From Phycisphaerae bacterium (GTDB lineage Bacteria > Planctomycetota > Phycisphaerae > JAJVII01), in the NCBI GenBank assembly GCA_022072085.1, contig JAJVII010000014.1:131182-183896 (forward strand): a stretch of DNA of 52,715 nt, written 5' to 3'. A program made the translations under genes and the position numbers. Shown piece after piece: positions 8,708 to 51,302 of this stretch. The notes beneath the pieces were generated by a model. The model saw only the letters and a program-made list of their open reading frames with translations. It was not told the DNA's origin and made no database searches. The number at the start of each line of letters is the position of its first letter. Within the stretch, counting starts at the first letter, position 1.

Positions 8708-8820
8708 GATTGGCTCCTTCTCGTACACGTTGTCTCTCGCACTCGCACGCGACCGACAAGAGCAGAGGCAGACAAAGAGAGATGCAGCTGTTCGGCACCC
8801 CGCGACTCCTCAAGACGCGT

Positions 8821-8835
8821 GCAACTGGCGTGCCA
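8821..8835 (-). promoter_or_regulatory. Sigma-54 (-24/-12) promoter motif
   Basis: Read on the minus strand, the site is TGGCACgccagTTGC, an exact match to the TGGCAC-N5-TTGC consensus. Its -12 element lies 113 bases before the ATG of the DNRLRE PEP-CTERM gene. Comparable motifs stand 98-121 bases before the starts at 10838, 12944, 15035 and 36286. Confidence 0.85.
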
Positions 8836-8955
8836 GCAAAGGGATTCTTGTTGAGAGTGGTTTCTCGTAAGTTGTAAGTATGCGGAATGCAGGGCGTTAC
8901 GGCCTTGCACGCGGCGTCAGAATCTTGCCGCCGTCCCGTCGGCCCGCAGTTGCGT

Positions 8956-9003
8956 GTTGCGGGGAATCAACATCCGGCCAGTCCAGTGTTGACCGGGAGC
9001 AAC
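8956..9003. promoter_or_regulatory. Paired GTTG-N8-CAAC boxes, copy 1 (putative enhancer site)
   Basis: Two 16-base dyads, GTTGCGGGGAATCAAC (8956-8971) and GTTGACCGGGAGCAAC (8988-9003), start 32 bases apart. The nearer edge is 121 bases upstream of the -24 element of the sigma-54 motif at 8821-8835. This is the usual range for binding sites of sigma-54 activators. The protein that binds is not in the window. Confidence 0.75.
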
Positions 9004-9028
9004 ATGGGAGAGCCCGGCGGCCGGAATG

Positions 9029-9083: not shown

Positions 9084-10838
9084 TCAGCTTCGTTGTCGCC
9101 GGCGGCGAGGGGCGATCAGCCCCAGCCCGCCCATCGCCAGCAACGCGACCGTGATCGGCTCGGGGACGAGGACGGGCAGATACTCGTACGCCCCGCGGTC
9201 GAGGTCGAGGCCGCTGGCCCTTGCATTGCCCAGCATGTCAGTCACGTAGACGAAGTGGGCCGCCGACGAGCCGGTGAGGCTGCCGCCCTGAAGATCGACG
9301 ATGACGTCCATGGCCGGCGTGTAGGTCCCGCTGTGGTCCACGTCGACGTAGAAGAAACTGCTGCTGAAGTCGGCGTGGGAGCCGTAGAGCATCAGGGCGT
9401 TGTCCAGGGCCAGCGTGCTGGATGCGGTGAGCTGATACGGGTCGTCCCCGGAGCCGAGGAAGAGCGGATCGCCGTCGAGGTTGCCCTCGATGTTCTGGGT
9501 CTCAACGCCGCTGTCGTTGCGGCTGTGGAACCCGGGGATCGGCGTGAAGGCCAGCGCCCCGGCAAGCGAGGTGGCCGTCTGGTTGTTCGGGGTGGCCGTG
9601 TCGGTCTTTTCGTAGAGCGTCTCATTGACGGTGGTGCGGAGCAGATCGTAGTTGCCGCTGCCGCTCACGCCCAGTTTCTTGGCGAAGACCTTGAGCTTGT
9701 CGTTGTCGGACAGGATGCTGTTGACCAGTTCGATGTGCCCGTGGGCGCCGTAGGCGCCGGGGTCGGTGTAGAGACCGGCCCCCAGCGCACCGGCGGCGGC
9801 GTTGTTGGCGACGATCGTCGTGTTGGCCAGGTAGAGCTGGTTTCGCCCCCCGTTGTAGACGGCGGCCGATCCCTGGTAGTCGCCGGCGCTTTGCTGTGTG
9901 TTACCCGTGATGAGCGTGCCGAAGACGATGGTCCTCAGGCCGGTCGTGTAGCTGGCGCTGGAAATCGCGGCGCCGAGCCGCCCGCTGTTGTCGGCGATGA
10001 CGCTGTTGGCGATCAGGACGCGCGGGGAGGAGGTGTCGTCGCCGGCCACCGAGATGCCTGCGCCGGTGTTGTCGTTGTGGTAGCTGGGCGAGCCGTTGGT
10101 GTTGTTGTGGACGTTGGTGTATTCGACGATGCCCGGAGCAGCCGCCGTCCCGACGTCGTATAGATAGATGCCGGCGCCCGTCTTGGTCGCGCTGTTGCTG
10201 TCGACCTCGCAATGCGAGATCAGCAGTCCGGTCACCGGCGCATTCGCGGCGCCCTTTACGGCGATGCCGCCGCCGGCGTTGGCTGTGTAGCTGCCCACCA
10301 CCGTGTTACCGGTCACCCGCAGGTTGGTCAGCGTGGTGTTGTTGGCGCCGTTGACGAAGATGCCGCCGCCGTAGTTCTGGTAGACGGTGTAGATGCCCAC
10401 GTCGATGCCGTGGGTCACTTCCAGATTGTCCACCTTCGTGTTGGCGCCGGTGATGGTGAGCACGCGGAACTTGTTGTCGGTCGTGTTGCTGCCGTTGACA
10501 TTCAGCACCGACTTGGATGCCAGGCTCTGCGAGGTGAAACTGCCGTCCCATCCGCCGCTGATGGTCAGGTTGCCGGTGGTCACCGCCAGGTCACCTACCG
10601 TCACATCGCCGGCGGTGCGTGTCAGGTCGCCGCTGACCTTCACCATGCCGGCCGCCCCGCCGCCCTGGGCGCTGTTGATGGCGGTCTGAAGGTCGTTCCA
10701 GGTGGCGCTCAGGATCGTGCTCGATCCGCCGTCGCCATCGCTCCAGTAGATCGACGCCGCCAGGGCCGACCGGCCGCCCGCCCAGGCAACCATCGCCGAC
10801 AGCGCCAACGCCGTCACCAGCAGTCTTGGACGCACCAT
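9084..10838 (-). CDS. PEP-CTERM parallel beta-helix protein, paralogue 1
   Basis: The 584-residue secreted protein has a signal peptide (1-~27, ending SALA), the block IYWSDGDGGSSTILSATWND shared with two paralogues, and then a right-handed beta-helix built of GGG-I-x-V-x-G...N-x-x-V-x-G-N rungs (~100-380). A choice-of-anchor-Q-like segment (EGNLDGDPLFLGSGDDPYQL, near 450) precedes the VPEP sorting tail with an Arg-rich end. The start at 10838 has AAGGAG 5 bases upstream; the longer open frame continues into a leader that is duplicated at the next paralogue and is not likely to be translated. Beta-helices of this type are often polysaccharide-binding or adhesive; no lyase catalytic motif is evident. 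The body is most like paralogue 3 (13293-15035). Confidence 0.87.
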   Translation of the reverse strand: MVRPRLLVTALALSAMVAWAGGRSALAASIYWSDGDGGSSTILSATWNDLQTAINSAQGGGAAGMVKVSGDLTRTAGDVTVGDLAVTTGNLTISGGWDGSFTSQSLASKSVLNVNGSNTTDNKFRVLTITGANTKVDNLEVTHGIDVGIYTVYQNYGGGIFVNGANNTTLTNLRVTGNTVVGSYTANAGGGIAVKGAANAPVTGLLISHCEVDSNSATKTGAGIYLYDVGTAAAPGIVEYTNVHNNTNGSPSYHNDNTGAGISVAGDDTSSPRVLIANSVIADNSGRLGAAISSASYTTGLRTIVFGTLITGNTQQSAGDYQGSAAVYNGGRNQLYLANTTIVANNAAAGALGAGLYTDPGAYGAHGHIELVNSILSDNDKLKVFAKKLGVSGSGNYDLLRTTVNETLYEKTDTATPNNQTATSLAGALAFTPIPGFHSRNDSGVETQNIEGNLDGDPLFLGSGDDPYQLTASSTLALDNALMLYGSHADFSSSFFYVDVDHSGTYTPAMDVIVDLQGGSLTGSSAAHFVYVTDMLGNARASGLDLDRGAYEYLPVLVPEPITVALLAMGGLGLIAPRRRRQRS

Positions 10839-10936
10839 GCTAGCTCCTTGTCTCTCGATGCTCATAGGCCCCGGCCGCAAGACGAAGCCGCGCAAGTCAG
10901 AAATGCTTCTGCGATAGCCCTTCTGTTAGCAAGCAT

Positions 10937-10951
10937 GCAAACGGCGTGCCA
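10937..10951 (-). promoter_or_regulatory. Sigma-54 (-24/-12) promoter motif
   Basis: Minus-strand TGGCACgccgtTTGC is an exact consensus match, with its -12 element 98 bases before the ATG of beta-helix gene 1. The paired boxes begin 111 bases upstream of the -24 element. Confidence 0.85.
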
Positions 10952-11061
10952 GGAGCCGGCAGGGCGGAAGGACCGGCCCTGTCGGTCTCATAAAGCACGC
11001 ATAATACGGAGATTACGGGTTTCATCTCAGCCGGCAGTCAATTGCTGGCCCGGTCCCGAAT

Positions 11062-11108
11062 GTGGCGAAAAAGCAACATGTCGGGCGGCCGTGTTTACCG
11101 GATTCAAC
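11062..11108. promoter_or_regulatory. Paired boxes, copy 2 (putative enhancer site)
   Basis: GTGGCGAAAAAGCAAC (11062-11077) and GTTTACCGGATTCAAC (11093-11108) start 31 bases apart. Each has one changed base in the left half-site relative to GTTG. The arrangement is otherwise the same as copies 1, 4 and 5 and nearly identical to copy 3. Confidence 0.72.
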
Positions 11109-11125
11109 GGTGGCCGGGGCGCAGG

Positions 11126-11152
11126 AAATGGGCCGCCCGCGGGGGCGGCCCA
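11126..11152 (-). terminator. Hairpin terminator after beta-helix gene 2
   Basis: TGGGCCGCC and GGCGGCCCA (11129-11137 and 11144-11152) form a 9-bp stem with a 6-base loop. On the minus strand it is followed by TTT. It lies 25 bases past the stop codon at 11178. Confidence 0.75.
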
Positions 11153-11177
11153 GGGAGTTCGGCTGATTACCGCGCGG

Positions 11178-12944
11178 TCAGCGTCGTTGTCGGCGGCGGC
11201 GGGACGCGACCAGACCCAGCCCGCCCAGCGAGAGCAGGGCCGCCGTGATCGGTTCGGGGACGGAGACGGACTGATACTCGTAGGCCCCGCGGTCGATGCC
11301 TGCGCCGGAAATGCGGTCGTTGCCCAGCAGGTCGGTCACATAGATCAGATGGCTGGCCGATGTGCCCGTGACCGATGCCCCGAACAGGCCCACGATGATG
11401 TCGAGCGCGGAATTGTATGCGCCGTTCATGTTGACGTCGACGTAGGCGAACTGTCCGCTGTCGCCGCCGGTGATGTCGGCGTGCGTGCCGATCTGAAGGA
11501 TGCCGTTGTCCAGCGAGTTGCTGCCCGCGGACAACTGGTATGGATCCAGCGGGTCGACGCCTGTGCCGACGTAACTGGGATTGCCGTCAATGTTGCCTTC
11601 CAGCAAATATGACTGAACGCCCAGGGCGTTGAAACTGCGATAGCCGGTGTTGGCGTTGCCGATGTTTGTCACGGCCGCAGCCAGGGTGGCGCTGATAGTG
11701 TCGCCGGCGTCGTCCTTCTCGTAATACTGCGCCTCGCTCACCGTGCTGTTCTGGAAGTCGACGAAAGCCGAGTGAGCCGACGACTGGTAGGTAGAGTAGC
11801 GTTCCTCGTAGTAGCCGTTGTTGTTGGTGGTCGACAGGGAATTGACCAGAATCACCCGGCCATTGCCATTGTAGCTGCCGCCCTGCACGTAGACGCCCGT
11901 GATCGTGGCGTCGTCGGCGCGGACGTTGTCCGCGATCGTGCTGTTCACCACGTAGGTTGTGAGGTGATCGTCGCCGAAGTAGAGCCCGTTGCCGGCGCCC
12001 GCCCCCTGGCTGTCGCCGGTCTTGCGGCTGACATAGTTGCCGTCGATCAAGGTGCCGAAGACGGTCAACCGGCTGGTGGTGTTATACGAACTCGCATAGA
12101 GACCGCCGCCCCACTTGGCCGTGTTGTCCTCGATCTTGCACTCGGCGATCACGCCGTAGGATATTCCGGTACTGCCGGAGGCGACGAACTGGATGCCGCC
12201 GCCGTAGCTGTTGAACTGGTAATTGGCCTTGACGGCCGAGTTGCCGCTGATCGTGCTCCCCTCGATGATCACGGGCTGGCTGGCGGTGCCGGAGCCCGAG
12301 CCGACATAGATGCCGCCGCCGCCGACCTGGGCCTGGTTGTTCTCGATGACCGAATTGCTCACCTTCACGTTGTAGGCGCCGACGATGGCGATCCCGCCGC
12401 CGTAGGAGTTGCCGTACTGGCCGTAGGCGTAGTTGCCGGTCACTTGCAGGTTCTGCAGCGTGGTGTTGCTGCCGGTCGATGAAACGTAGACGCCGCCGCC
12501 GTAATCCTTATACGGCGAGCCCTTGGTCATGGAGAAGTTGTCGACCACCGTGTTGGCGCCGCTGATGGCCATGACGCGGAACTGGTTGTTGGCCGACTGG
12601 GCGCCGTTCACGTTCAGCGTCGACGCGGCGCCCTGGGTGGTGAAGGTCGAGTTCCACCCGCCGCTGATGGTCAGGTTGCCGGTGGTCACCGCCAGGTCGC
12701 CTACCGTCACATCGCCGGCGGTGCGTGTCAGGTCGCCGCTGACCTTCACCATGCCGGCCGCCCCGCCGCCCTGGGCGCTGTTGATGGCGGTCTGAAGGTC
12801 GTTCCAGGTGGCGCTCAGGATCGTGCTTGATCCGCCGTCGCCGTCATTCCAGTAGATGTCGGCCGCCAGGGCCGACCGGCCGCCCACCCAGGCAACCATC
12901 GCCGACAGCGTCAACGCCGTCACGATCAATCTTGGACGTCTCAT
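11178..12944 (-). CDS. PEP-CTERM parallel beta-helix protein, paralogue 2 (mosaic)
   Basis: The 588-residue secreted protein has a signal peptide ending SALA and a first ~95 residues almost identical to paralogue 1. A divergent beta-helix follows, with rungs such as YGGGIAIVG and GGGIYVGSGSG. Its end, SVSVPEPIT plus an Arg-rich tail, is nearly identical to paralogue 3. The middle (~95-540) differs from both neighbours and carries different loops. It therefore looks like a mosaic whose ends were homogenised with each neighbour. The start at 12944 has AAGGAG 5 bases upstream. It has its own sigma-54 motif (13043-13057), paired boxes (13168-13214) and terminator. It is predicted to be exosortase-sorted to the cell surface or matrix; no enzymatic motif was found. 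Confidence 0.87.
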   Translation of the reverse strand: MRRPRLIVTALTLSAMVAWVGGRSALAADIYWNDGDGGSSTILSATWNDLQTAINSAQGGGAAGMVKVSGDLTRTAGDVTVGDLAVTTGNLTISGGWNSTFTTQGAASTLNVNGAQSANNQFRVMAISGANTVVDNFSMTKGSPYKDYGGGVYVSSTGSNTTLQNLQVTGNYAYGQYGNSYGGGIAIVGAYNVKVSNSVIENNQAQVGGGGIYVGSGSGTASQPVIIEGSTISGNSAVKANYQFNSYGGGIQFVASGSTGISYGVIAECKIEDNTAKWGGGLYASSYNTTSRLTVFGTLIDGNYVSRKTGDSQGAGAGNGLYFGDDHLTTYVVNSTIADNVRADDATITGVYVQGGSYNGNGRVILVNSLSTTNNNGYYEERYSTYQSSAHSAFVDFQNSTVSEAQYYEKDDAGDTISATLAAAVTNIGNANTGYRSFNALGVQSYLLEGNIDGNPSYVGTGVDPLDPYQLSAGSNSLDNGILQIGTHADITGGDSGQFAYVDVNMNGAYNSALDIIVGLFGASVTGTSASHLIYVTDLLGNDRISGAGIDRGAYEYQSVSVPEPITAALLSLGGLGLVASRRRRQRR

Positions 12945-13042
12945 GCTAGCTCCTTGTCTCTCGATGCTCATAGGCCCCGGCCGCAAGACGAAACCGCGCA
13001 AGTCAGAAATGCGTCTGCGATAACCCTTCGACTAATTAGCAT

Positions 13043-13057
13043 GCAAACGGCGTACCA
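13043..13057 (-). promoter_or_regulatory. Sigma-54 (-24/-12) promoter motif
   Basis: Minus-strand TGGTACgccgtTTGC has one mismatch to TGGCAC-N5-TTGC and keeps the invariant GG and GC with 10 bases between them. The -12 element is 98 bases before the ATG at 12944, and the paired boxes begin 111 bases upstream of the -24 element. Confidence 0.82.
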
Positions 13058-13167
13058 AGAGCCGGCAGGACGGGAAGATCGGCCTCGTCTGCCACCTAAA
13101 GCCTTTCTGGCTCGATGGTTGAGAGTTTCCATCCAGCCGGCAGTCAATTGCCGGGCCGGTCCTGAAT

Positions 13168-13214
13168 GTGGCGAAAAAGCAACATGTCGGGCGGCCATGT
13201 TTACCGGATTCAAC
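13168..13214. promoter_or_regulatory. Paired boxes, copy 3 (putative enhancer site)
   Basis: GTGGCGAAAAAGCAAC (13168-13183) and GTTTACCGGATTCAAC (13199-13214) start 31 bases apart. Both box sequences are the same as in copy 2. Spacing to the promoter is also the same. Confidence 0.72.
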
Positions 13215-13234
13215 GGTGGCCGGGGCGCAAGGAA

Positions 13235-13258
13235 TGGGCCGCCCGCGGGGGCGGCCCA
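13235..13258 (-). terminator. Hairpin terminator after beta-helix gene 3
   Basis: TGGGCCGCC (13235-13243) pairs with GGCGGCCCA (13250-13258), the same hairpin as at 11129-11152. On the minus strand ATTCC follows, a weak T run. It lies 34 bases past the stop codon at 13293. Confidence 0.7.
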
Positions 13259-13292
13259 GAGAGTTCGGCTGATTACCGCGCGGTCAGCGGCC

Positions 13293-15035
13293 CTAGCGGC
13301 GACGCCGGGACGCGACCAGGCCCAACCCGCCCAGCGAGAGCAGGGCCACCGTGATCGGTTCGGGGACCGAGACGGACTGATACTCGTAGGCCCCGCGGTC
13401 GATGCTCGAGCCCGCGCCCCGAAGATTGCCGGCCAGATCGTCGAGGTAGACATAGTGGAAGGCTGACGAGCCGGTTTGCGTGCCGCCGTCGATCAGGAAG
13501 ATGACGTCCAGTGCCGGGTCGTACGTGCTGTTGTGATTGACGTCAACGTAGAAGAAGCCGCTGCTGAAGTCGGCGTGCGAGCCGCTGAGGATCAGCCCGT
13601 TGTCGATGGCCAGCGTGCTGGACGAGGTGAGCTGGTAGGGGTCGTCGCCCGAGCCCAGGAACAGGGGGTCGCCTTCGGTGTTGCCCTCGATGGCCTGAGA
13701 CTGCGTGCCGCTGTCGTCGCGGCTGTGGAATCCGGGAATGGGGGTGAAGGCCAGGGCCCCGGCCAGCGTGGTGGCCGTCTCGTCGCTGGGGGTGGCGGTG
13801 TCCTTCTTGTCGTAGAGCGTTTCGTTCAGCAGCGAGCGGAGGAACTCGAAGTTGCCGCCGGTGGCGGCGTAGGCGTTGCTGGCGGCAAAGGCCTTGAGCT
13901 TGTCGTTGTCCGAGAGGATGCTGTTGACCAGTTCAAGCTGGCTGTAGGCGCCGTAGCTGCCGGCGTCGGCATAGAGCCCGGCGCCGAGGGCGCCGCTGGC
14001 CGCCACGTTGTCGGCGATGGTCGAATTGGCCAGGTAGAGCGTGTTGCGCCCGCCGTTGTAGACGCCGGCCGCCCCCTGGTAGTCGCCGGCGCTCTGCTGG
14101 GTGTTCCCGGCGATCAGCGTGCCGTAGACGACCACATTGTGGGCCGTGCTGAAGTTGCTGCTGGAGAGCGCCCCGCCCCGTCCGTCGTTGTCGGCGATGA
14201 CGCTGTTGGCGATCAGCACGTGCGTGGAAACGTTGTCGCCGGTCACCGCGATGCCTGAGCCGGAGTTGTTGTTGTGGTAGCTGGGCGAGCCCATGGTGTT
14301 GTTGTGGACGTCGGTATACTCGACCACGCCGGGGGAAGCGTTGGTCCCCACGTCGAACAGGTAGATGCCGCCGCCGGACGACTGGGCGAAGTTGTTGTCC
14401 ACTTCGCAGTGTGAGATCAGCAGGCCGCTCAGTCGCGTCGTGTTGCTGCCCTTTGCTGCGATGCCGCCGCCGGCATTGGCCGTGTAGCTGCCCACCAGCG
14501 TGTTGCCCGTCACCCGCAGGTTCTTGAGCGTCGTGTTGTCGGCGCCGTTGACGAAGACGCCGGCGCCGTAGTTCTGATACACGGTGTAGATGCCCACGTC
14601 CTCGCCGCCGGTGATCTGGAGGTTGTCCACGGTTGTGTTGGCCCCGGTGATCGTCAGCACGCGGAACTTGTTGTCGGCCGTGTTGCTGCCGTTGACGTTC
14701 AGCACCGACTTGGACGCCAGGCTCTGCGAGGTGAAACTGCCGTCCCATCCGCCGCTGATCGTCAGGTTGCCCGAGGTCACCTCCAGGTCGCCGATCGACG
14801 CGTCGCCCGCGGTCCGCGCCAGGTCGCCGGAGATCTTCACCATGCCGGCCGCCCCGCCGCCCTGGGCGCTGTTGATGGCCGACTGAAGGTCGTTCCAGGT
14901 GGCGCCCAGGATGGTGTTCGATCCGCCGTCGCCGTCGTTCCAGTAGATGTCGGCGGCCCGGGCCGGGGCGCCCAAGCAAAGCGCAAGAGTCGCGCCCAGC
15001 GCGATCACGACGATCGTCCGATGGATAGGTTTCAT
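13293..15035 (-). CDS. PEP-CTERM parallel beta-helix protein, paralogue 3
   Basis: The 580-residue secreted protein has a signal peptide (1-~27, ending ARA), the IYWNDGDGGSNTILGATWND block, and a beta-helix (~95-375) that aligns rung by rung with paralogue 1: YTVYQNYGAG, VNGADNTTLKNLRVTGN, ISHCEVDNN, VHNNTMGSPSYHNNN. A choice-of-anchor-Q-like region (EGNTEGDPLFLGSGDDPYQL) precedes the VPEP sorting tail. The ATG at 15035 has GAGGGA 5 bases upstream. Its signal peptide differs from those of paralogues 1 and 2, which share theirs. A sigma-54-like motif (15137-15151) and paired boxes (15274-15321) lie upstream. It is probably the oldest member of the tandem set, but that order is inference. Confidence 0.87.
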   Translation of the reverse strand: MKPIHRTIVVIALGATLALCLGAPARAADIYWNDGDGGSNTILGATWNDLQSAINSAQGGGAAGMVKISGDLARTAGDASIGDLEVTSGNLTISGGWDGSFTSQSLASKSVLNVNGSNTADNKFRVLTITGANTTVDNLQITGGEDVGIYTVYQNYGAGVFVNGADNTTLKNLRVTGNTLVGSYTANAGGGIAAKGSNTTRLSGLLISHCEVDNNFAQSSGGGIYLFDVGTNASPGVVEYTDVHNNTMGSPSYHNNNSGSGIAVTGDNVSTHVLIANSVIADNDGRGGALSSSNFSTAHNVVVYGTLIAGNTQQSAGDYQGAAGVYNGGRNTLYLANSTIADNVAASGALGAGLYADAGSYGAYSQLELVNSILSDNDKLKAFAASNAYAATGGNFEFLRSLLNETLYDKKDTATPSDETATTLAGALAFTPIPGFHSRDDSGTQSQAIEGNTEGDPLFLGSGDDPYQLTSSSTLAIDNGLILSGSHADFSSGFFYVDVNHNSTYDPALDVIFLIDGGTQTGSSAFHYVYLDDLAGNLRGAGSSIDRGAYEYQSVSVPEPITVALLSLGGLGLVASRRRR

Positions 15036-15136
15036 GGCAATCCCTCTTCTCGTGTTTTCCGGCGTTCTTGGACCTGGCGATCCAACTTACGGCGAAGTGC
15101 GCTGCGAGTCCCGGAAACTGGCCATGCGACGAGGCC

Positions 15137-15151
15137 GCAATTGGCGTACCT
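15137..15151 (-). promoter_or_regulatory. Sigma-54 (-24/-12) promoter motif, slightly degenerate
   Basis: Minus-strand AGGTACgccaaTTGC keeps the GG and GC cores at the right spacing and a perfect TTGC; the -24 box has two mismatches. The -12 element is 101 bases before the ATG at 15035. The paired boxes begin 123 bases upstream of the -24 element. Confidence 0.75.
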
Positions 15152-15273
15152 GGAGAAGGTGCAGAGCCCCTGGAATTCAGTGGCGGCCGTACAATTGACA
15201 TAGAGTGCAGAACTTACACCCCAAAAATTGCGGCGAGTTTCTCCTTCTCGCGGATCCCGCATCGGCCCCGGAT

Positions 15274-15321
15274 GTTGCGGAAAATCAACATCTTCCCCAC
15301 CCGGCGTTGACCGGAATCAAC
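15274..15321. promoter_or_regulatory. Paired GTTG-N8-CAAC boxes, copy 4 (putative enhancer site)
   Basis: GTTGCGGAAAATCAAC (15274-15289) and GTTGACCGGAATCAAC (15306-15321) start 32 bases apart, both with perfect GTTG/CAAC arms. This copy is the cleanest of the five. Confidence 0.77.
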
Positions 15322-15328
15322 AAGGCCG

Positions 15329-23101: not shown

Positions 23102-25645
23102 TCACTGGACGGCCTTGATGGCTTCTTCGATCTTCCTTCGGACCCACGGGACCGGCTCGTTGGCCAGTGCGTCGCGCAAAGCGGGCAGCGAGTCCTTGTC
23201 CTTCATCAGGCCCAGCCCCTCGGCCGCCGCCGCCCGCATGTGCTCGTCCTGGTAGATGACCGTGTTGTACTTCATGTGATCCAGCAGTTCGACCTTGCGG
23301 ATGTGCGTCAGGCTCTCGCGCAGCGTCGGGGCGCTGGCCGTGTCGCCCAGCCGCCCCAGGGCGATCGCCGCCTGGGCCCGGACCACGAGGAACGGGTGGT
23401 CCAGCAGCTCGCGCAGCCTCGGGATCGAGGCGGTGTCGTGCACGCAGCCGGCAGCCCGGGCGGCCTCGACGAGCATGTAGGGGTAGCTCATCGCCAGCGA
23501 CTTGCGGACCGCTTCGGTGACGGCCTTGTCGCCGGGCTCGGCGATCTGCGCCAGCGCCCGCAGGATCTGCATCCGCGCCAGGTCGTTGCAGAACCTGCTG
23601 TCGGTCGCGGCGGCCAGCGGCTGGGCGAACTCCTTCCAGTCCGACTCGGCGGCCATCTGGCTGATGATGGCCACGCCGCTGATCCAGTGCCCGCCGGCGA
23701 CGACGGGATCCTTGGGGTCGAACTTCCAGCCGGTCTTGCACTCGCTGTCCCCGACGATCTGGAGCAGCAGGGGGCGGGCCTTGGCCCGGTCGCTGTTGTA
23801 GAGCGCCAGCAGCGCCAGTTCCTTGATCGTTCCGCCCTTGCACAGCTCGGTGTCGAACGCCACCTTGCGGACCGACTCGAACGTCTCGGGCGCTTCAAGC
23901 TCCGACGCCCAGACCAGGCCGGTCTTGACGTATTTGCCGCGGCTGTCCATCCACTCGTTCACCTGGCTGATCTTCGGCGGCGCCTTGCCGCGGTGCAGTT
24001 CGCGGATCCAGCGGGTGCGGGTGTCGGCGGCCGACGGCAGCGGCGGCAGCTTCTCGATCGGGCTGGGCGTCTCCTTCACCAGCGTGCGCGGGCCCTGGCC
24101 GTCGGCGGCGATCGTCTCGATCAGCAGGTCCTTGCAGACCACGTCCTCCCACTTGCCGCCGGCGGCGACGATCTCGTAGCTGTAGGGCAGCTTGTCGGTG
24201 ACGGTGACGTTCGTGCGATCCTTGCCGGACGGGTCGTCCCAGGTGTAGGTGATGCGGACGGCGGTCCCGGCCCGTAGCGTGCCGCGGACGGCGATCGCGT
24301 TCTTGCCCGGCCAAAGCTGCGGCAGGGAGCGGATCGCCTGCTGCACGGTGGTCTTGAAGGTGATCGCGTCCACGCGGCAGTCGGCCGGCGCGTCCTTGGC
24401 CAGCAGTTCCAGCCGGATGCGATAGGCGTACTGCGCGAACGGCGAGCCGAGATCCTTGGGGGCCTGCGGATGCCGCGGCGTGACGGTGAACTTCTTGTCG
24501 AGGACGACTTTGAATATCCGGGCGCCCGTCTGGCCGCCCGGCGCTTCCCAGCAGGGCTGGTAGCTCCTGCCGTCGTCGACCGACAGCGAGAGGCGGATCG
24601 CGTCGGCGTCGCTCTTGCGGAACGCGGACAGGTCGATCTCGGCTTCGGCGATCAGGTACGGCGAGCGGAAGTGCCAGACGGCGACAGCCGGGACGCCGGC
24701 CTTGGCGGGGGTCAGGCCCTTGCCGTCGGCCAATCCCTGGGCGGGCTCAGCCAGTCCGTCGGCCCACTCCCTGGCGGACAGGTCGGGCGTGTAGGTCCAC
24801 AGCCCGTTGCCGTAGGTGATGGGGTAGGGGCCCTTCTCGGAGGGCTGGCGGGTCTTGACGTCGGCGTCGTTGTCGAAGTTGTCCTCGACCGGCTTGCCCC
24901 AGTTGCCCCACTTGCGGGTCAGGCTCTCGCCGCGGCGCATGGACAGTTCGACGCGATGGGTCGGCATCGGCCAGGGCTCGCCGAAATACCACGGATACAT
25001 CCACTGGTAGTAGTCGGTGCTGAAGTCGTCGGGGCCCAGCACGCGGTCGCCCTTGCGGTCGGTGGTGAAGCCGCCGAAGTTGCAGTCGAACAGATGGCAG
25101 CGGTCGCCGCCGTCGGCGTCGAGGTAATACAGGCCGGCCATGCCGTGGCTGAGCCGATGGACCGCGTGGCCCTCGTAGCCCATCGCCCGCCAGATCATCG
25201 CGACGGTCCGGCCCAGCCCGCTGCACCAGTGGGCGCCGTAGACGTTGAGGATCTTGATCGGGTCGTAGACCTCCGGCACGGTGCGCTCGGGGTGGTAGGG
25301 GTCGTACGGGGCGTCGCCGTTGGTCTGCGACTTGACGCGGCGCAGCCACATCCAGACGGCCAGCGCCTTGTCCTGCTCGGTCTTGGCCCCGCTGAGGCGC
25401 ACCGCGTCCTCGCCGAAGCGGCGCAGGTCGGAGCAGTCCGGCCAGCGGTCGCAGGTGACGACCAGGTCGGTCGCGTCAGGCAGGGCGCAGAGGAACGGGC
25501 CGGGCGTCTTCTCGGACGGCCCGCGCCAGTACTGGTAGTCGCGGGTGACCCGGGGCAATTGCGGCGGGTCGGCCCAGGCAACGCCGGCTAGCGTGACGCA
25601 TGCAGCGGCGGCGAGGCAAACGGCCGAACCGAAGTTGGAACGCAT
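23102..25645 (-). CDS. Secreted transglutaminase-like protein with C-terminal HEAT repeats (B)
   Basis: The 847-residue paralogue of the next gene downstream has a signal peptide (1-~25), a transglutaminase-like core with Cys141, His167 and Asp187 (NVYGAHWCSGLG, LSHGMAGLYY, HLFDCNFGG), beta-domains to ~560, and alpha-helical HEAT repeats (~610-845) such as AARAAGCVHDTASIPRLRELLDHPFLVVRAQAA-type units. Its ATG at 25645 shares one base with the stop codon of the pectate lyase-RCC1 gene (TGATG), with AAGGAG 8 bases upstream, so translation is probably coupled. The adjacent pair of paralogues suggests a duplication inside the operon. A plausible role is processing or cross-linking of proteins in the cell envelope during polysaccharide use; this is inference. 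Confidence 0.83.
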   Translation of the reverse strand: MRSNFGSAVCLAAAACVTLAGVAWADPPQLPRVTRDYQYWRGPSEKTPGPFLCALPDATDLVVTCDRWPDCSDLRRFGEDAVRLSGAKTEQDKALAVWMWLRRVKSQTNGDAPYDPYHPERTVPEVYDPIKILNVYGAHWCSGLGRTVAMIWRAMGYEGHAVHRLSHGMAGLYYLDADGGDRCHLFDCNFGGFTTDRKGDRVLGPDDFSTDYYQWMYPWYFGEPWPMPTHRVELSMRRGESLTRKWGNWGKPVEDNFDNDADVKTRQPSEKGPYPITYGNGLWTYTPDLSAREWADGLAEPAQGLADGKGLTPAKAGVPAVAVWHFRSPYLIAEAEIDLSAFRKSDADAIRLSLSVDDGRSYQPCWEAPGGQTGARIFKVVLDKKFTVTPRHPQAPKDLGSPFAQYAYRIRLELLAKDAPADCRVDAITFKTTVQQAIRSLPQLWPGKNAIAVRGTLRAGTAVRITYTWDDPSGKDRTNVTVTDKLPYSYEIVAAGGKWEDVVCKDLLIETIAADGQGPRTLVKETPSPIEKLPPLPSAADTRTRWIRELHRGKAPPKISQVNEWMDSRGKYVKTGLVWASELEAPETFESVRKVAFDTELCKGGTIKELALLALYNSDRAKARPLLLQIVGDSECKTGWKFDPKDPVVAGGHWISGVAIISQMAAESDWKEFAQPLAAATDSRFCNDLARMQILRALAQIAEPGDKAVTEAVRKSLAMSYPYMLVEAARAAGCVHDTASIPRLRELLDHPFLVVRAQAAIALGRLGDTASAPTLRESLTHIRKVELLDHMKYNTVIYQDEHMRAAAAEGLGLMKDKDSLPALRDALANEPVPWVRRKIEEAIKAVQ

Positions 25646-28368
25646 CAGTGGCTCTCCTTGATCGCCGGGACGGGCCGGGGGACCCAGCGGGTCGCGGCGA
25701 CGCGATGGCCGGTCTTGATCATCTCCGACGTCGAACGCTTGCCCTGATCGACGTAGTTTCCGTCCTTGTCGATCCACTTCACGTTCAGGCTGCCGTCGCC
25801 GATCTGGCCGCGCATGTTGTCGCCCCAGGTCAGCAGCGATCCGTCAGCCAGCATCGCGACGGTGTGGGCCCCGCCGCCGGCGACGGCCGCCACCTTCTCC
25901 AGCAGCCCGACGCCCAGCGGGCCCTTCACCCGCGTCGCGACCGAGAGGCTGTCGTGGCTGCCCACGCCGCACTGGCCGCGGTAGTTCCAGCCCCAGGCCC
26001 ACAGCCCGCCGTCGCGGTCGATCGCCAGCGAATGCAGCCCGCCGGCCGCGATCGTCCGGGCGATCAGCGGCCTGCCCTCGGCGGTCCGCACCTGGACCGG
26101 CCTGTTGCGGAAGACCGTCGTGCCGTCGCCGAGTTGGCCGAAATCGTTGCACCCCCACGCCCAGACCGTGCCGTCGGCCGCCAGCGCCAGCGTGTGCTGC
26201 CAGCCGGCCGCCACCGCGGCGACATTCGCCAGCCCCGGCGTCTGCACCGGCGTCAGCCGGTCGGCGTTCGTGCCGTCGCCGAGCTGGCCGTAGAGGTTGT
26301 CGCCCCAGCAGAAGACCGTGCCGTCCTTGCGCAGGGCGACGCTGTGCTTGACGCCCGCGGAGATCGCGACCGCGCTGGCCAGGCCCTTCACCTGCACCGG
26401 CAGCAGCCGGTCGGCCGTCTCGCCGTCGCCCAGCCTGCCGTCCTGCCCGCAGCCGGTCGCCCAGACCGTGCCGTCAGCGCGGAGGATCAGCGTGTGGTAG
26501 CCGCCGACCGAAACCGCGACAACGCGGTCGAGCGGCGCCTTGCCGTCGGGACCCAGCACCGAGACGGGCAGCGGAACCTGCTCTGCCGTCTGGCCGTTGC
26601 CGAGTTGGCCGTGGTCGTTGCTGCCCCAGGCCAGCAGCTTGCCGTCGGCGGTGATCGCCGCCGAGGTCTCCCCGCCGGCCGAGATGGCTGCCGGCGTTGC
26701 CAGCGGCGACTTGCCGTCGGGCCCAAGCGTGACGGCGGGCGCGTCGCGGTCCTTGCCGCCGCCGTCGCCCAGTTCGCCGCGCCAGTTCAGGCCCCAGCCG
26801 TAGAGCTTTCCGTTGCGGATCGCCAGCACGTCGCCGCTGCCGGCCGAGATCGTCGCTCCGCCGGGCCCAGCCGGCAGGGGCAGGTTGGACTGTCCGGCGA
26901 CGACCGCCGGGGCGGCCGGCTCGGGCGTGGGCGGCTGGGCGTCGCGCTTGGCGGCGTCTTCCGCGGCGGCGGCCACGAGCTTGTCGCTCAGTTCGTTGAC
27001 GTAGAACTCGACGTAGGTGTAGCCCCTGTGGCGGTCGCCCTCGGACGCGCCAGCCGGAACGACCTTGTTCGCATCAGCCGGGTCGGCCGGGTTCAGCCCG
27101 TGGGCCTTCTCCCAGTCGTCGGGCATGCCGTCGCCGTCGGCGTCGGCGGCGGGCTTGCCGGGGGTCATGCCTTCCATCAACCCCCCCGCGGGCGGATGCC
27201 ACCCCCACGAGCCGGTCCCCGTGCGGGTCTCCTCAATGGTCCTGCGGGTCACCGCGTCGCGCGGCAGGCAGCCGGCCTGAGCGAGCACGAGGCGGTAGGC
27301 CTCCTTCGCGTCCTGCGTGGCCACTGCCGGCACATCCCATTCCTTCTCGACCCAGAACTTCGAGCCCTTCTTGATGCCGTCAGACGCCTGGACGTTCGGA
27401 TCGTAGTCGTCATATCGGCCTTCGGGTCCGGCCCACGCCCAGAAGTTGCGATGGCCGTAGAGCTGGACGTTCTTCCAGTCAGCCAGTCCGGGCACGGCCT
27501 GGTTGTAGGGCAGCAGCCAGGGGCGCATGCCGACCGGCCCGCCGGGCCCGGCCTTGAAGTAGTCGCCGATGAGGTTGGTGTGATAGAGGCGGCCCTCGTG
27601 GCGGTTCATCCGCGGGGGGTGATACTGCAACGCCCAGGCGACGTTGTAGAGGACGTTGTTGCGATGGTCGACGGTGTCCAGCCCGCACAGCGGGGCCCGC
27701 TCGCTCTGGTGGGCGAACAGGTTGTGGTGCAGCGTCGCGGCGCCGTCCACGTAGCCGAGGATCATGCCGTAGTTGTGAACGCCGCTGCCCTGGTGGGCCA
27801 GGCAGGACGCCTCGATCGTGCACCACTGCACGGTCAAATCGTGGCTGACGCAGAAGTCCATCTCCTCGTCGTTGCCGCCGGAGACCGAGACGTGGTCGAG
27901 GATCAGCTTCGTGATCGCGTTGAGCTGCGTGCAGTCGCCGTTGCCGCCGCCCACTTCCCCCCAGACCGGGCGAAAGCGGATGTGTCGGATGATGACGTCG
28001 TGCAGCGGCTGGCCGCCCCGGGCGATGCCCGAGCTGAGACGCCCCTGCACGGTGATTCCAGCGCCCGGCGCGGTCTGGCCGGCGATCGTCACGTTCGGCT
28101 TGCTCAGATTCACGTTGCCCTCGATCACGCCGGAGACGTCGAAGACGATGATCCGCGGCTGGTCGAGGTCCAGTGCCTCCTGGAGGCTGCCCGGGCCCTT
28201 GGCGTTCAGGTTGGTCACGTGGACGACCTTGCCGCCGCGCCCTCCGACCGCGGCGGCGCCGAAGCCTTCGGCGCCGGGAAACGCCGGAAGGCCCGGCTCC
28301 TCCGCCAGCGCGACGCCCGCGGACAACGCCAACGCCGCGGCACCGATCCAGCCGATCCGTCTGTTCAT
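25645..28368 (-). CDS. Secreted pectate lyase fused to a seven-bladed RCC1-type propeller
   Basis: The 907-residue protein has a signal peptide (1-~22) and a pectate-lyase beta-helix (~24-380). The helix starts LPAFPGAEGFGAAAVGGRGG and carries LILDHVSVSGGNDEEMDF, the acidic calcium-site region of PL1-like lyases, and ends CLPRDAV. A calcium-loop-like motif DADGDGMPDDWEKAHGL (~409-425) follows with the GYTYVEFYVNEL segment, then a Pro-rich linker and seven RCC1 repeats (~505-860), each of the form I/V-x-A-G-x-x-H-T-x-x-L-x-x-D-G-x-x-x-x-W-G-x-N-x-x-G-Q-L-G-D-G. Seven units would close a complete propeller. The start at 28368 has GGGAG 6 bases upstream. It lies 17 bases after the lyase-HEAT gene and overlaps the next gene by one base. 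Confidence 0.88.
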   Translation of the reverse strand: MNRRIGWIGAAALALSAGVALAEEPGLPAFPGAEGFGAAAVGGRGGKVVHVTNLNAKGPGSLQEALDLDQPRIIVFDVSGVIEGNVNLSKPNVTIAGQTAPGAGITVQGRLSSGIARGGQPLHDVIIRHIRFRPVWGEVGGGNGDCTQLNAITKLILDHVSVSGGNDEEMDFCVSHDLTVQWCTIEASCLAHQGSGVHNYGMILGYVDGAATLHHNLFAHQSERAPLCGLDTVDHRNNVLYNVAWALQYHPPRMNRHEGRLYHTNLIGDYFKAGPGGPVGMRPWLLPYNQAVPGLADWKNVQLYGHRNFWAWAGPEGRYDDYDPNVQASDGIKKGSKFWVEKEWDVPAVATQDAKEAYRLVLAQAGCLPRDAVTRRTIEETRTGTGSWGWHPPAGGLMEGMTPGKPAADADGDGMPDDWEKAHGLNPADPADANKVVPAGASEGDRHRGYTYVEFYVNELSDKLVAAAAEDAAKRDAQPPTPEPAAPAVVAGQSNLPLPAGPGGATISAGSGDVLAIRNGKLYGWGLNWRGELGDGGGKDRDAPAVTLGPDGKSPLATPAAISAGGETSAAITADGKLLAWGSNDHGQLGNGQTAEQVPLPVSVLGPDGKAPLDRVVAVSVGGYHTLILRADGTVWATGCGQDGRLGDGETADRLLPVQVKGLASAVAISAGVKHSVALRKDGTVFCWGDNLYGQLGDGTNADRLTPVQTPGLANVAAVAAGWQHTLALAADGTVWAWGCNDFGQLGDGTTVFRNRPVQVRTAEGRPLIARTIAAGGLHSLAIDRDGGLWAWGWNYRGQCGVGSHDSLSVATRVKGPLGVGLLEKVAAVAGGGAHTVAMLADGSLLTWGDNMRGQIGDGSLNVKWIDKDGNYVDQGKRSTSEMIKTGHRVAATRWVPRPVPAIKESH

Positions 28369-28385
28369 CGCGTTCTCCCGGGCGT

Positions 28386-31169
28386 TCACTTGCCGATCCG
28401 TTCCAGGGCCGCCGCCGCGGCGGTCCTGACGACGTAGTCCTCGTCCTGGCAGGCCTTGCTCAGCGCGTCGCGGGCGCCGGCAGCCGACGGGCCCAGCAGC
28501 GCCAGCGAGAGCACCGCCTCGCGGCGGACCTGCGGGTCGCCATCGGCGGCGGCCTTGACCAGCGCGGGGACGGCTGCCGCCGCCGCGTTGCCCATGTCGC
28601 CCAGCGCCCGGGCCGACCAGCCGCGGACCTGGGCGTCATCGGCGCTCAGCGCCGTGGCCAGCGCCGCCGCCTCGCCGAGCCGGCCCAGCGCCTGCACCGC
28701 CGCCCGGCGGACCTCGCCGCGCGGATCGGCCAACAATTTCACCAGCGCGTCGGCGGCGCCCTTGGCGGCCGGGCCGCAGTTGCCCAGCGCCTCAGCCGCC
28801 GCGACCCGCACGTTGTATTCCTTGTCGCTCAGCGCCGCGACCAGCGCCGCCTGCGACTGCGGAGCGATGCAGCCGATGGCCGTCGCCGCCGCCGCCCGCA
28901 CGACCAGTTCCGCGTCCTTGGCCAGCCGATCGGCCAGCGGGGCGGCCGCGTCGGCGGCAGCCGGGCCTGCCCAGCCCAGGGCCCGGGCGGCGTTGGCGCG
29001 GACGTCCGACTCGCGGTCGGAAAGCGCCTTGACCAGCCCGGCGAAAGCCGGGGCGCCGATGTTGCCCAGGGAGCGCGCGGCGAAGTGGCCGGTGTAGCCG
29101 CCCTTGCCCAGCGACTTGAGCAGCGGCGCCAGTGCGGGCTCGGCGTCCTTTCCCAGCGTGCTCAGCGCCCAGGCGGCGTTGTCGGTGGCACGGGTGTCCC
29201 TGCCGACCAGCAGCCCGCCCAGGGCCGGCGCTGCCTGGCGGGCCTGCTCGGGCGTCAGTCCGATTCGGCCCAGGGCCCAGGCGATGTAGCCGTAAGGCTG
29301 GAAGGACCAGCCCTTGGTGACGGTGGACTGCTCAGCCTGGAGGGCCTTGAGCAGGTCGGGCAGGGCCGGCTTGGCGACCGGACCGATCGCCCCCAGCGCC
29401 CAGGCCGAGAAGGTCACTGCCTGCGGATCTTCCATGCCCTTGGCCAGGCCCTTGGCCAGCTCAGCCACCGCGGGGGCGGCCTTGTCGCCGAGGCGGTTCA
29501 ACTGGATGATCGCCTGCCACGCCGAGATCAGGTCGTTGTAGGTCCTGGGGTCGTGGGCGTCCTTCTGGGTCGCGTCCTGCCGCTTGACAGCGGCCACCAT
29601 GTCGTCCAGCGACTTGTGCCAGTGCGTGGTGTTGGTCGAAAGCCCGTTGGCCGGCTTGTCCCACGGCTTGGTCGCCGCTTCGCGGTCCAGCCGGGCGGCG
29701 GTGACGGCCTCGGCGACGCGCTGGTCGGCCAGGTCGTTGAAGTAATATTCGACGTAGGTGTAGCCCTTGTGGCGGTCGCCGGGCGAAGCGCCGGCCGGCA
29801 CGACCTTGCTGGCGTCGGCGGGGTCAGCGGGGTTCAGCCCGTGGGCCTTCTCCCACGCGTCGGGCATGCCGTCCTGGTCGGCGTCGGGGGGGCAGGCGAC
29901 CTTGCCCGGCTCGGGCAGGCCCTCGAGCAGGCCGCCGTCGGGGCCCCAGCGGCCCCAGCAGCCGCCGCCGGTCCGCACCTCGGCCAGCGTGCGCTTGCTC
30001 ACCGCGTCGCGCGGCAGGCAGCCGACCTGTGCGAGCACCTGCTCGTAGGCCTCCTCAGCCGGCTGGCGCGTGACCGGCGGGAAATCGAACGGCGCGTCGG
30101 CCACCTCCTTGGGGCGTTTGATGCGCTCGCGCCCGACGTAGCCGTCCCACGCGAAGTAGTTGCCGTCGAACCAGATCTTCACGTCGTTATGGTAATACTC
30201 GTACTGGTCGCGCGGCTCGAGGCCCTGGAGCGAGCAGGCCAGCGGCGGGATGAATGCGTAGCCGGCGACCAGTCCGCCCGGGCCGGTCTTCCAGTAGTTG
30301 CCGATCAACTGATATTGCTGGCGGTTGGGGGCGTCCTTGCAGCTTCCCATCTGCGTTTCCTGCGGGCCGACGTTGTAGAGCACGTTGTTGCTGAACTCGG
30401 TGTGGTGGTCGGCCAGCAGCGGCGCCCTGCCGACGTGGTGGGCCAGCAGGTTGTGGTGGATGCTGACGTGACTGTTGTGCCAACTGCCCATGAACCCGAA
30501 GCCGTGGTCCTCGCCGCTGTGCTCCATGTGGGCCGGGTCGCTCTCCTCCATCGCGCACCACTGGAAGGTGAAGTTGTCGTCGCCGGCCGGATAGCCGGGA
30601 TTGAACGACTGGTCCAGCCCCCACGAGCCGGAGACGTGGTCGAGGATCGCCCGCTTGCAGTAGTAGAATTCCGCCACCCGCAGGTTGCCCGTGCCCTCGG
30701 TCGGGCGGATGCGCAGGAAGCGGACGATCACGTTCTCGGTGCGCACCTCGCTCTTGTAGTGGCCCTTGACCTCGGCCGGGTCGGAAGAGCCGCGGTCGCT
30801 GCGGTAGGTGCTCAGCATGCCGTCGATGGTGATCCCCGGCGGCGGGGCGGTCTGGCCGGCGATGGTGATGTCGCCGTGCAGGATGGTAATCCAGCGCCCC
30901 TCCTTGGAGCCCTGGCCGGGCCTGATGACCCCGCCCACGTCGAAGACGACGATCCGCGGGCCCTTCTCCCGGCAGGCCCACTGGAGCGAGCCCGGTCCGT
31001 CGGGGTTCAGGTTGGTGACGTGGAGTATCCTGCCCCCGCGCCCGCCGGTGGCGACCGCGCCGAAGCCCTCGGCGCCGGGGAAAGCCGGCAGGGCCGCCGG
31101 TTCGTCAGCCATCGCGGCGCTCGTCGCCAGCAATGTCACAACAGCCGCGAGAATGCGCATCGGGGTCAT
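28386..31169 (-). CDS. Secreted pectate lyase fused to HEAT repeats
   Basis: The 927-residue protein has a signal peptide (1-~21), a pectate-lyase beta-helix (~25-390) with AILDHVSGSWGLDQSFN, a CLPRDAV element, and the calcium-loop-like DADQDGMPDAWEKAHGL (~429-445) plus GYTYVEYYFNDL. A long HEAT/PBS-lyase repeat array (~560-927) follows, with units such as SDRESDVRANAARALGWAG and ADPRGEVRRAAVQALGRLG. The acidic pair DE-M-D seen in its two sister lyases after the DHVSGS motif is DQSFN here, so one calcium ligand may be missing. The start is 7 bases after the stop of the plain pectate lyase. HEAT arrays usually bind proteins; their presence on an exported lyase suggests an extracytoplasmic complex. 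Confidence 0.87.
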   Translation of the reverse strand: MTPMRILAAVVTLLATSAAMADEPAALPAFPGAEGFGAVATGGRGGRILHVTNLNPDGPGSLQWACREKGPRIVVFDVGGVIRPGQGSKEGRWITILHGDITIAGQTAPPPGITIDGMLSTYRSDRGSSDPAEVKGHYKSEVRTENVIVRFLRIRPTEGTGNLRVAEFYYCKRAILDHVSGSWGLDQSFNPGYPAGDDNFTFQWCAMEESDPAHMEHSGEDHGFGFMGSWHNSHVSIHHNLLAHHVGRAPLLADHHTEFSNNVLYNVGPQETQMGSCKDAPNRQQYQLIGNYWKTGPGGLVAGYAFIPPLACSLQGLEPRDQYEYYHNDVKIWFDGNYFAWDGYVGRERIKRPKEVADAPFDFPPVTRQPAEEAYEQVLAQVGCLPRDAVSKRTLAEVRTGGGCWGRWGPDGGLLEGLPEPGKVACPPDADQDGMPDAWEKAHGLNPADPADASKVVPAGASPGDRHKGYTYVEYYFNDLADQRVAEAVTAARLDREAATKPWDKPANGLSTNTTHWHKSLDDMVAAVKRQDATQKDAHDPRTYNDLISAWQAIIQLNRLGDKAAPAVAELAKGLAKGMEDPQAVTFSAWALGAIGPVAKPALPDLLKALQAEQSTVTKGWSFQPYGYIAWALGRIGLTPEQARQAAPALGGLLVGRDTRATDNAAWALSTLGKDAEPALAPLLKSLGKGGYTGHFAARSLGNIGAPAFAGLVKALSDRESDVRANAARALGWAGPAAADAAAPLADRLAKDAELVVRAAAATAIGCIAPQSQAALVAALSDKEYNVRVAAAEALGNCGPAAKGAADALVKLLADPRGEVRRAAVQALGRLGEAAALATALSADDAQVRGWSARALGDMGNAAAAAVPALVKAAADGDPQVRREAVLSLALLGPSAAGARDALSKACQDEDYVVRTAAAAALERIGK

Positions 31170-31176
31170 GTGGGTC

Positions 31177-32718
31177 TCACTTTCCGTCGGGCTGGGAGGT
31201 CGGGGCGGCGGCCGCCTGCTTCATGGCCTGTTCGATCAGCCGGTCGGCGCGCTCGTTGATGTAGTACTCGATATAGGTGTAACCCTTGTGGCGGTCGTTG
31301 GGGCTGGCGCCGGCCGGGACGACCTTGTTGCCGTCGGTCGGATCGTCGGGGTTCAGCCCGCGGGCCTTCTCCCAGGCGTCGGGCATGCCGTCGCGGTCGG
31401 TGTCGGGCGGGGCCTGTTCGGCCGGCGGCAGGCCCGCGGTCAGTCCGCCCTCGGGGTCGTAGCGCCCCCACAGGCCCGTGCCGTTGCGGGTGTCCTCGAC
31501 GGCCTTGGTGCTGACCGCGTCGCGCGGCAGGCAGCCGACCTGTGCGAGGACGAGTTTGTAGGCCTCCTCGGCGGTCTGGGTCGCGACCGGCGGGGCGGGC
31601 CAGGGCTTCTCGGCGTGGAGGCACTTGTTGACGTTGAAGCCGCGGACGTTGTCCTTCCACACGTCGACCACCCTGCCGGCGACGGCGTCGTAGTTGCCCT
31701 CGGCGAACAGGTCCGCGCCGGCTTCGCCGACCATGTAGCAGCGGTAGGCCGACGCCTTGGCGTCCGGCAGGCAGTCCTTGTATTCGGGCGGCACGCTGGG
31801 ACCGCACTTGAAGTAGTTGGCCACCACGTTGGCGCGGAAGGGCTGGCCGGGGCGGTCGAGGTTCTTCTTGCCGCCGTGGAACATGATCCCGGCCGCCACG
31901 TCGTACATCACGTTGTTGCGTTCGTCGAGCACCTCCAGCCCGCACAGCGGCGTGCGGCGGTTGTGGTGCGTGAACAGGTTGTGGTGCAGGCTGGCGTTGC
32001 CCTTGTCGGTGTAGCCCATGATCATGCCGTAGCAGTGCGGCGTGTTGCCGCCGGCGTTGAACTGGGTGCTGTCGTCGATGCGGTACTTGGAGATCGGCCC
32101 GTCCCAGGCCGACGGCTCGATGCCGCACCACTGCACTGTGAACTGCCGCGAGACTGAGAAGTCCATGTCCTCGTCCACGCCCCACGAGCCCGAGACGTGG
32201 TCGAGGATGAGCCGCTCGACGGCGACCAGCCGCACCGAGTGCTGCGTGTTGGGCCCCTTCGGGCGCATCCTCAGGAAGCGGATGATCATCTCCTGCCCGC
32301 GCAGCCCGTCGATGTGATGGATCCAGTCGGGGTCCTGCTTGGTCTTGGCGAAGATCGGGCCGTAGTAGTGCTTGGTGCTCAGTTCGCCGACGACGGTGAT
32401 GCCGGGACTGGGGGCCGTCTGGCCGGCGATGGTGATGTGGCCGTCCTCGATCTCCAGCGTGTCGTTCTTGGTCGTGATCACGCCGCCGACATCGAAGACG
32501 ACGATCCGCGGTCCCTTGGCGGCGCAGGCCTCAGCCAGGCTGCCCGGCCCGTCGGCGTTCAGGTTGGTGACGTGGATGACCCGCCCGCCGCGGCCGCCGA
32601 CGGCGACGGCCCCGAACCCCTCGGCCCCCGGAAAGGCGGGCAGCGGGTTGTCGTCGGCCAGGACAGCCGAGGCGGCGGTCAGCAGCAGGGACAGGGCGAT
32701 GTGCAGCGTCAGCTTCAT
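31177..32718 (-). CDS. Secreted pectate lyase
   Basis: The 513-residue protein has a signal peptide (1-~21), a beta-helix lyase domain starting LPAFPGAEGFGAVAVGGRGG, VIHVTNLNADGPGSL, ITIAGQTAPSPGI, LILDHVSGSWGVDEDMDF (~170-187, calcium/active-site region), and conserved HHNLF and NNVMYDV rungs. At the end stand CLPRDAV and the calcium-loop-like DTDRDGMPDAWEKARGL (~442-458). It cleaves polygalacturonate by beta-elimination if it acts like family members. It is the shortest of three related lyases and lacks the extra RCC1 or HEAT modules, so it is the likely ancestral form. ATG 32718 overlaps the preceding stop in an ATGA, with GGGAG 7 bases upstream. Confidence 0.9.
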   Translation of the reverse strand: MKLTLHIALSLLLTAASAVLADDNPLPAFPGAEGFGAVAVGGRGGRVIHVTNLNADGPGSLAEACAAKGPRIVVFDVGGVITTKNDTLEIEDGHITIAGQTAPSPGITVVGELSTKHYYGPIFAKTKQDPDWIHHIDGLRGQEMIIRFLRMRPKGPNTQHSVRLVAVERLILDHVSGSWGVDEDMDFSVSRQFTVQWCGIEPSAWDGPISKYRIDDSTQFNAGGNTPHCYGMIMGYTDKGNASLHHNLFTHHNRRTPLCGLEVLDERNNVMYDVAAGIMFHGGKKNLDRPGQPFRANVVANYFKCGPSVPPEYKDCLPDAKASAYRCYMVGEAGADLFAEGNYDAVAGRVVDVWKDNVRGFNVNKCLHAEKPWPAPPVATQTAEEAYKLVLAQVGCLPRDAVSTKAVEDTRNGTGLWGRYDPEGGLTAGLPPAEQAPPDTDRDGMPDAWEKARGLNPDDPTDGNKVVPAGASPNDRHKGYTYIEYYINERADRLIEQAMKQAAAAPTSQPDGK

Positions 32719-33755: not shown

Positions 33756-34021
33756 GGGGCGCCTCCACGGCCGCGCCGTTCGCGGGCGCGTCCGATAAAC
33801 ATCCACATGCAGCCAGAGTACGGCATGGCTCTCCGCATCCTCGTGATTGAAAGCGAGACGCTGTCGTGCCGGTCTCGGCCCCGACAGCCGGGGCCGAGTT
33901 CCCCCCCAGCAGGTTGCTCTACAATCGCATCAGGCCTCCGTTGCCCACTCCAGGTCTATCGCAGTCTGACAAATGCCGCGACCCGTTCCAGCCGCCCGCG
34001 CTCGCTGACGCTCGCGGCTAA
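33756..34021. other. Upstream region of the pectin operon with a 10-bp hairpin
   Basis: No gene was found here. CTCGGCCCCG (33874-33883) and CGGGGCCGAG (33889-33898) form a perfect 10-bp hairpin with a 5-base loop. It could terminate transcription coming from the PEP-CTERM genes at 34235-36286, or act in the operon leader. No convincing sigma-70 or sigma-54 promoter for the pectin operon was recognised. Confidence 0.5.
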
Positions 34022-51239: not shown

Positions 51240-51302
51240 GATTCTGGTTCGTGCGGGCATGGTGTGTCGCCCGCCCGCCGGCGGCTTGGCTTTGCCGGCT
51301 AT

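Follow-up and report, generated by a model that had tools for sequence, protein, structure and literature searches.

Genes and promoters of the array

The window, the 52,715-nucleotide stretch of DNA analyzed here, carries three paralogous genes in tandem on its minus strand, which are P3, P2 and P1 in the order of transcription. P3, the first of the array (13293..15035, minus strand), encodes a protein of 580 amino acids with a signal peptide, an N-terminal domain, a predicted β-helix core and a PEP-CTERM tail (PF07589, E 3e-5). P2, in the middle (11178..12944, minus strand; 588 amino acids from its ATG; PF07589, E 4e-4), joins a 5′ part nearly identical to that of P1 and a 3′ tail nearly identical to that of P3 to an old divergent core. 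P1 is the last (9084..10838, minus strand; 584 amino acids from its ATG). The TTG codons listed as starts of P1 and P2 probably lie too far upstream. A good ribosome-binding site (AAGGAGCTAGC) stands before the ATG codons at 10838 (P1) and 12944 (P2). The C-terminal motif close to the stop that defines PEP-CTERM proteins (TIGR02595/PF07589) is present in all three, with TIGR02595 scores of 20.0, 24.3 and 22.1 bits for P1, P2 and P3, all above the cut-off of 16. The products are secreted bacterial proteins, probably bound to the surface. Their core is predicted to be a β-helix. The structure model of P2, of low confidence (pLDDT 49), gives a weak β-helix match in Foldseek (9cdu, E 4e-4), and the choice-of-anchor Q domain scores 21.8 bits, under its cut-off of 25. 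The model has a weak structural likeness to Rhombotarget A and to PL6-type right-handed β-helices; unlike these, P2 has no assigned enzymatic family, and the likeness is that of a low-confidence model.

The adjoining gene P0 (7544..8707, minus strand) is a PEP-CTERM gene with a DNRLRE domain, unrelated to P1–P3, and has the same type of promoter (a sigma-54 site with 0 mismatches, and dyads). In all four genes (4/4) a sigma-54-type site lies 113–128 bp 5′ of the ATG, together with paired TGTTG-N8-CAACA dyads 31–32 bp apart. On the minus strand, the site of P1 is at 10936..10951 (TGGCACGCCGTTTGCA; 113 bp 5′ of the ATG), that of P2 is at 13042..13057 (TGGTACGCCGTTTGCA), and a sigma-54-like site with 2 mismatches precedes P3 at 15136..15151 (AGGTACGCCAATTGCG). 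The paired dyads of the same strand are found at 11061..11109 upstream of P1 (1 and 2 mismatches), at 13167..13215 upstream of P2 (with the same sequence as those of P1) and at 15273..15322 upstream of P3 (0 and 1 mismatch). The combined regions of site and dyads in the window are 8820–9004, 10936–11109, 13042–13215 and 15136–15322.

The junction repeat and the mosaic of the three genes

The sequence-only reading had described P2 as nearly identical to P1 upstream and over the first ~95 codons, nearly identical to P3 at its C-terminal end, and unlike both in the middle, where P1 and P3 resemble each other. The sliding-window comparison that it proposed was run among the three genes, and the mosaic was seen at each of these places: divergence is uneven along the genes and changes at breakpoints. 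Near-identity of P1 and P2 covers the upstream region and ~94 codons; the two are 97% identical over codons 46–115, with windows of 60/60 and 60/60 in codons 60–100, and fall to ~50–60% in the core. P2 and P3 reach 97% identity in the final 31 codons (51/60 and 55/60 in windows at the end). Amino-acid identity of the cores is 41% for P1–P2 and 43% for P2–P3 compared with 73% for P1–P3, the pair whose sliding identity stays at ~80% across the core. By permutation of polymorphic sites, the segments of excess identity are codons 21–110 for P1–P2 (p = 0/5000), codons 584–616 for P2–P3 (p = 0/5000) and, in addition, codons 114–145 for P1–P3 (p = 0.007).

Both near-identical ends belong to one contiguous direct repeat of ~754 bp, in which 10552–11305 corresponds to 12658–13411 at an offset of exactly 2106 with 0 indels. 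This contiguity and fixed register, which take in the entire intergenic region, had been missed earlier. Copy 1 (10552..11305, minus strand) spans the 3′ end of P2, the intergenic region and the 5′ end of P1, and copy 2 (12658..13411, minus strand) spans the 3′ end of P3, the intergenic region and the 5′ end of P2. Each carries, between the 3′ end of one gene and the first ~94 codons of the following one, a terminator-like hairpin, the dyads, the sigma-54 site and the leader. The hairpin, GGGCCGCCC-GCGG-GGGCGGCCC, was read in the repeat alignment at 11130..11151, after P2, and is the same at 13236–13257, after P3. The copies differ at 78 of 754 positions, unevenly spread, with local divergence ranging from 0.6% to 35%. 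The best-homogenized tract (10552..10721, minus strand), which corresponds to codons 58–113, has 1 difference in 170, and the signal peptide and cleavage region have 16 in 114. The spacer between the dyads and the sigma-54 site is an un-homogenized patch (10966..11045 against 13072–13151), in which 28/80 positions differ. Clustering of the differences persists when this patch is left out (p = 0.0004). With 52/80 positions identical, against a random expectation of 20/80, the patch is clearly homologous. A patch that is homologous but 35% diverged, within junctions of equal length and without indels, argues that both junctions are older than the homogenized tracts that flank it.

Synonymous divergence (dS, by NG86; a rough estimate at a GC3 of ~0.9) follows the same boundaries. 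Between P1 and P2 it is 0.02 in codons 58–113 versus 0.79 in the core. These codons are not merely constrained, because P3 has a dS of 0.24–0.27 there against both P1 and P2. Between P2 and P3 the value is 0.21 in the tail versus 0.76 in the core; this tract is short and 0.21 is not tiny, and the 80 bp 3′ of the stop are 96% identical. A third tract is seen between P1 and P3, with a dS of 0.10 in codons 113–145 versus 0.48 core-wide. P1 is P2-like to codon 113 and turns P3-like directly after, through its core; it is thus no less a mosaic than P2, and the pattern requires three tracts or more. Excess identity is significant in such segments and low dS is confined to them, the pattern by which gene conversion is recognized. 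In the distant homologue described below, too, the N-terminal domain is better conserved than the core (24/39 identical, columns 80–120), and constraint therefore accounts for a share of the N-terminal similarity.

Age of the cores and rival explanations

The outgroup, a protein from a different class of the phylum (G489, 336 amino acids, truncated at a contig end), is the sole homologue found in the phylum-wide sample, and a distant one. With this single incomplete protein as reference, relative rates of the P1 and P2 cores are 25 v 26 sites, without acceleration in P2, and the core topology is P1P3|P2, with P1 and P3 as sisters (17:2:2 sites). The core phylogeny is independent of the shared ends and older than them, as judged with one partial outgroup. 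Equal rates and the sister relationship of P1 and P3 indicate that the P2 core is an old, unaccelerated paralogue that branched before the P1/P3 split, and so need not have been replaced. A foreign origin by composition was considered and is unsupported, as GC3 is 0.89 in the P2 core versus 0.91 and 0.93. P2 may also have acquired an equally old homologous core by import. No donor for it was found in its own genome, plasmids, viral contigs or wider genome contigs, the class sample gave partial β-helix matches only, and an orthologue is absent from the one other genome of the order examined.

The account that we favor, and consider likely, is that of an old tandem family whose junctions were later homogenized by patchy homologous recombination between copies, while the cores kept their own histories. 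P3, P2 and P1 would be old tandem relatives encoding exported, PEP-CTERM-anchored proteins with a predicted β-helix core, with P2 the first to diverge and P1 as the sister of P3. Later, short stretches would have been copied between the gene junctions, by ectopic gene conversion or by unequal exchange, wherever identity sufficed, from the 3′ tail, terminator and paired dyads to the leader, signal peptide and N-terminal domain. The cores would have been too diverged to recombine, which would give the genes their mosaic look. The molecular route would be RecA-type conversion, in which copying could have run either way between the junctions; the shared ends would matter for expression and export only. 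Part of the pattern could be produced by tandem duplication through unequal crossing-over.

In its full form, unequal crossing-over would have generated P2 from two alleles of a two-gene locus with different second cores, one event inserting a core and its two flanking junctions. The junction repeat is contiguous, keeps its register and flanks the P2 core exactly, and such an event would yield at once a P1-like 5′ end, another core and a P3-like tail. We nonetheless find this unlikely, as a single event does not predict divergence from 0.6% to 35% within the repeat unless the alleles were already mosaic, and the 35% diverged patch suggests that both junctions are old. Selective constraint alone, by which the ends would have stayed alike without recombination, draws on the conservation of the N-terminal domain and PEP-CTERM tail across the family and on promoter elements common to the regulon. 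It is extremely improbable given that breakpoints are sharp and that identity at third positions and in non-coding DNA greatly exceeds that of P3 in the corresponding sites (dS 0.02 v 0.25).

The sequence-only reading had left two options, duplication with later gene conversion of the ends or replacement of the core. Conversion is supported, on a dS of 0.02 versus 0.79 and on the breakpoints. Core replacement, or diversifying selection of an antigenic or adhesin type with constant ends retained for export and anchoring, would explain constant ends around a divergent center, as in BabA/BabB (PMC4552749), and the dN/dS of the core is 0.73 for P1–P2 versus 0.40 for P1–P3, a contrast that leans on synonymous estimates that are rough at this GC3. 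It is not needed, and we hold it to be improbable: the P1 and P2 cores have equal rates against the outgroup, P2 branches before P1 and P3, the composition is not foreign, and there are no silent copies. The 97%-complete genome holds just three full-length copies, without a fourth paralogue or silent cassette, and its other matches are PEP-CTERM tails. This argues against a silent-cassette system, and the proposed analogy with antigen-variation or adhesin cassettes lacks this key part.

The closest parallel is found in Helicobacter pylori, where babA and babB have near-identical N- and C-terminal regions and a divergent middle, with gene conversion (PMC4552749). P1–P3 resemble babA/babB/babC in their shared ends, divergent middle and gene conversion (PMC4552749), and by analogy the array would work like babA/babB without being a member of that family. 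The bab products are outer-membrane proteins, whereas those of P1–P3 are PEP-CTERM predicted β-helices; the bab genes occupy separate loci, undergo phase variation through CT repeats and are backed by population proof, whereas P1–P3 have none of these and are seen here in one genome. The array is best read as ordinary gene conversion within a gene family, not as evidence of antigen switching.

PEP-CTERM tails and the sigma-54 regulon across the genome

The genome has 86 PEP-CTERM matches. Between neighboring PEP-CTERM genes, tails are more similar than between genes paired at random (0.783 v 0.693; 0/2000 permutations, with the window genes in or out). A pair on contig C53 has tails 94% identical over 173 bp, reaching 80 bp beyond the stop, and on contig C34 tails are 92–96% identical over 90–99 bp, in both cases with bodies without significant similarity; a pair on contig C42 has near-identical tails and weak body similarity (E 7.5e-5). 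The P0 tail is 84% identical to that of P1 over 73 bp, and 77–78% to those of P2 and P3. This neighbor similarity lends support to conversion but does not prove it, since local tandem duplication would raise it too. A wider claim, that PEP-CTERM genes of this genome generally swap end modules (promoter/signal ends and PEP-CTERM/terminator tails) with neighbors, even with unrelated bodies, is tentative and rather doubtful.

Several other repeats were noted. Two PEP-CTERM genes at contig ends (C2:396-473 and C8:154866-154943) share 387 bp at 98.7%, comprising the 3′ end and downstream DNA (C2:1-~800 and the end of C8), a repeat that probably broke the assembly. In the window, several stretches of 25600–32700 are alike at 67–78% DNA identity by self-blast, and two genes there have a partial match to the pectate lyase PelZ at the N-terminus. 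A 169-bp repeat (34015–34183 and 51296–51464; 97.6% identical, inverted ends CACCACAGAG...CTCTGTGGTG) was rejected as a shared gene end and is a MITE-like dispersed element.

Genome-wide, a sigma-54 site with at most 1 mismatch precedes 49/81 PEP-CTERM genes (1 in the reversed control), and a site together with a dyad, with at most 2 mismatches in all, precedes 41/81 (control 0). The consensus is a sigma-54 site TGGYACGN4TTGCA with paired TGTTGN8CAACA dyads, the pairs 21–22 or 31–32 bp apart. The distances from dyad to promoter show a phasing of 10.5 bp (R 0.62, Rayleigh p 7e-11), in a test where pairs of the same gene are not independent. P1–P3 appear to be members of this large sigma-54 PEP-CTERM regulon, whose paired dyads are helically phased. 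The best score for the PrsR equivalog TIGR02915 is 418 bits, under the cut-off of 502.6. On contig C56, an AtoC/NtrC-like response regulator and a histidine kinase (L128:8658-11279) have a perfect dyad just upstream, and this pair is a candidate regulator of the regulon. The contig that carries the distant homologue has paired dyads and, with 1 mismatch, a sigma-54 site (L180:1824-2054) ~1.1 kb upstream of the homologue; the same regulatory signature may be present in another class of the phylum.

PEP-CTERM/EpsH (exosortase) substrates under sigma-54/PrsK-PrsR control were described in 2006 (PMC1569441). The array shares with them the PEP-CTERM tail, a long upstream non-coding region, a sigma-54 site and an upstream activator motif, as well as the expansion of tails within a lineage (PMC1569441). 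The DNA motifs of that survey were found only in Proteobacteria, and motif 1 ends in TTTACA with a ~63-nt spacer, whereas here the dyad is TGTTGN8CAACA and lies mostly 105–170 bp before the sigma-54 site (PMC1569441). The array also indicates that an apparently planctomycete-like bacterium has a large sigma-54 PEP-CTERM regulon. The 16S of this genome is 76–78% identical to the best plasmid-borne 16S sequences among the matches listed and agrees only in part with planctomycete probe sites, so this placement is tentative. If end modules are generally exchanged, new bodies could plug into a common frame of export and regulation. These results argue that a mosaic resembling antigenic variation can come from old paralogues and local gene conversion, and that a relative-rate test with an outgroup tells the two readings apart.
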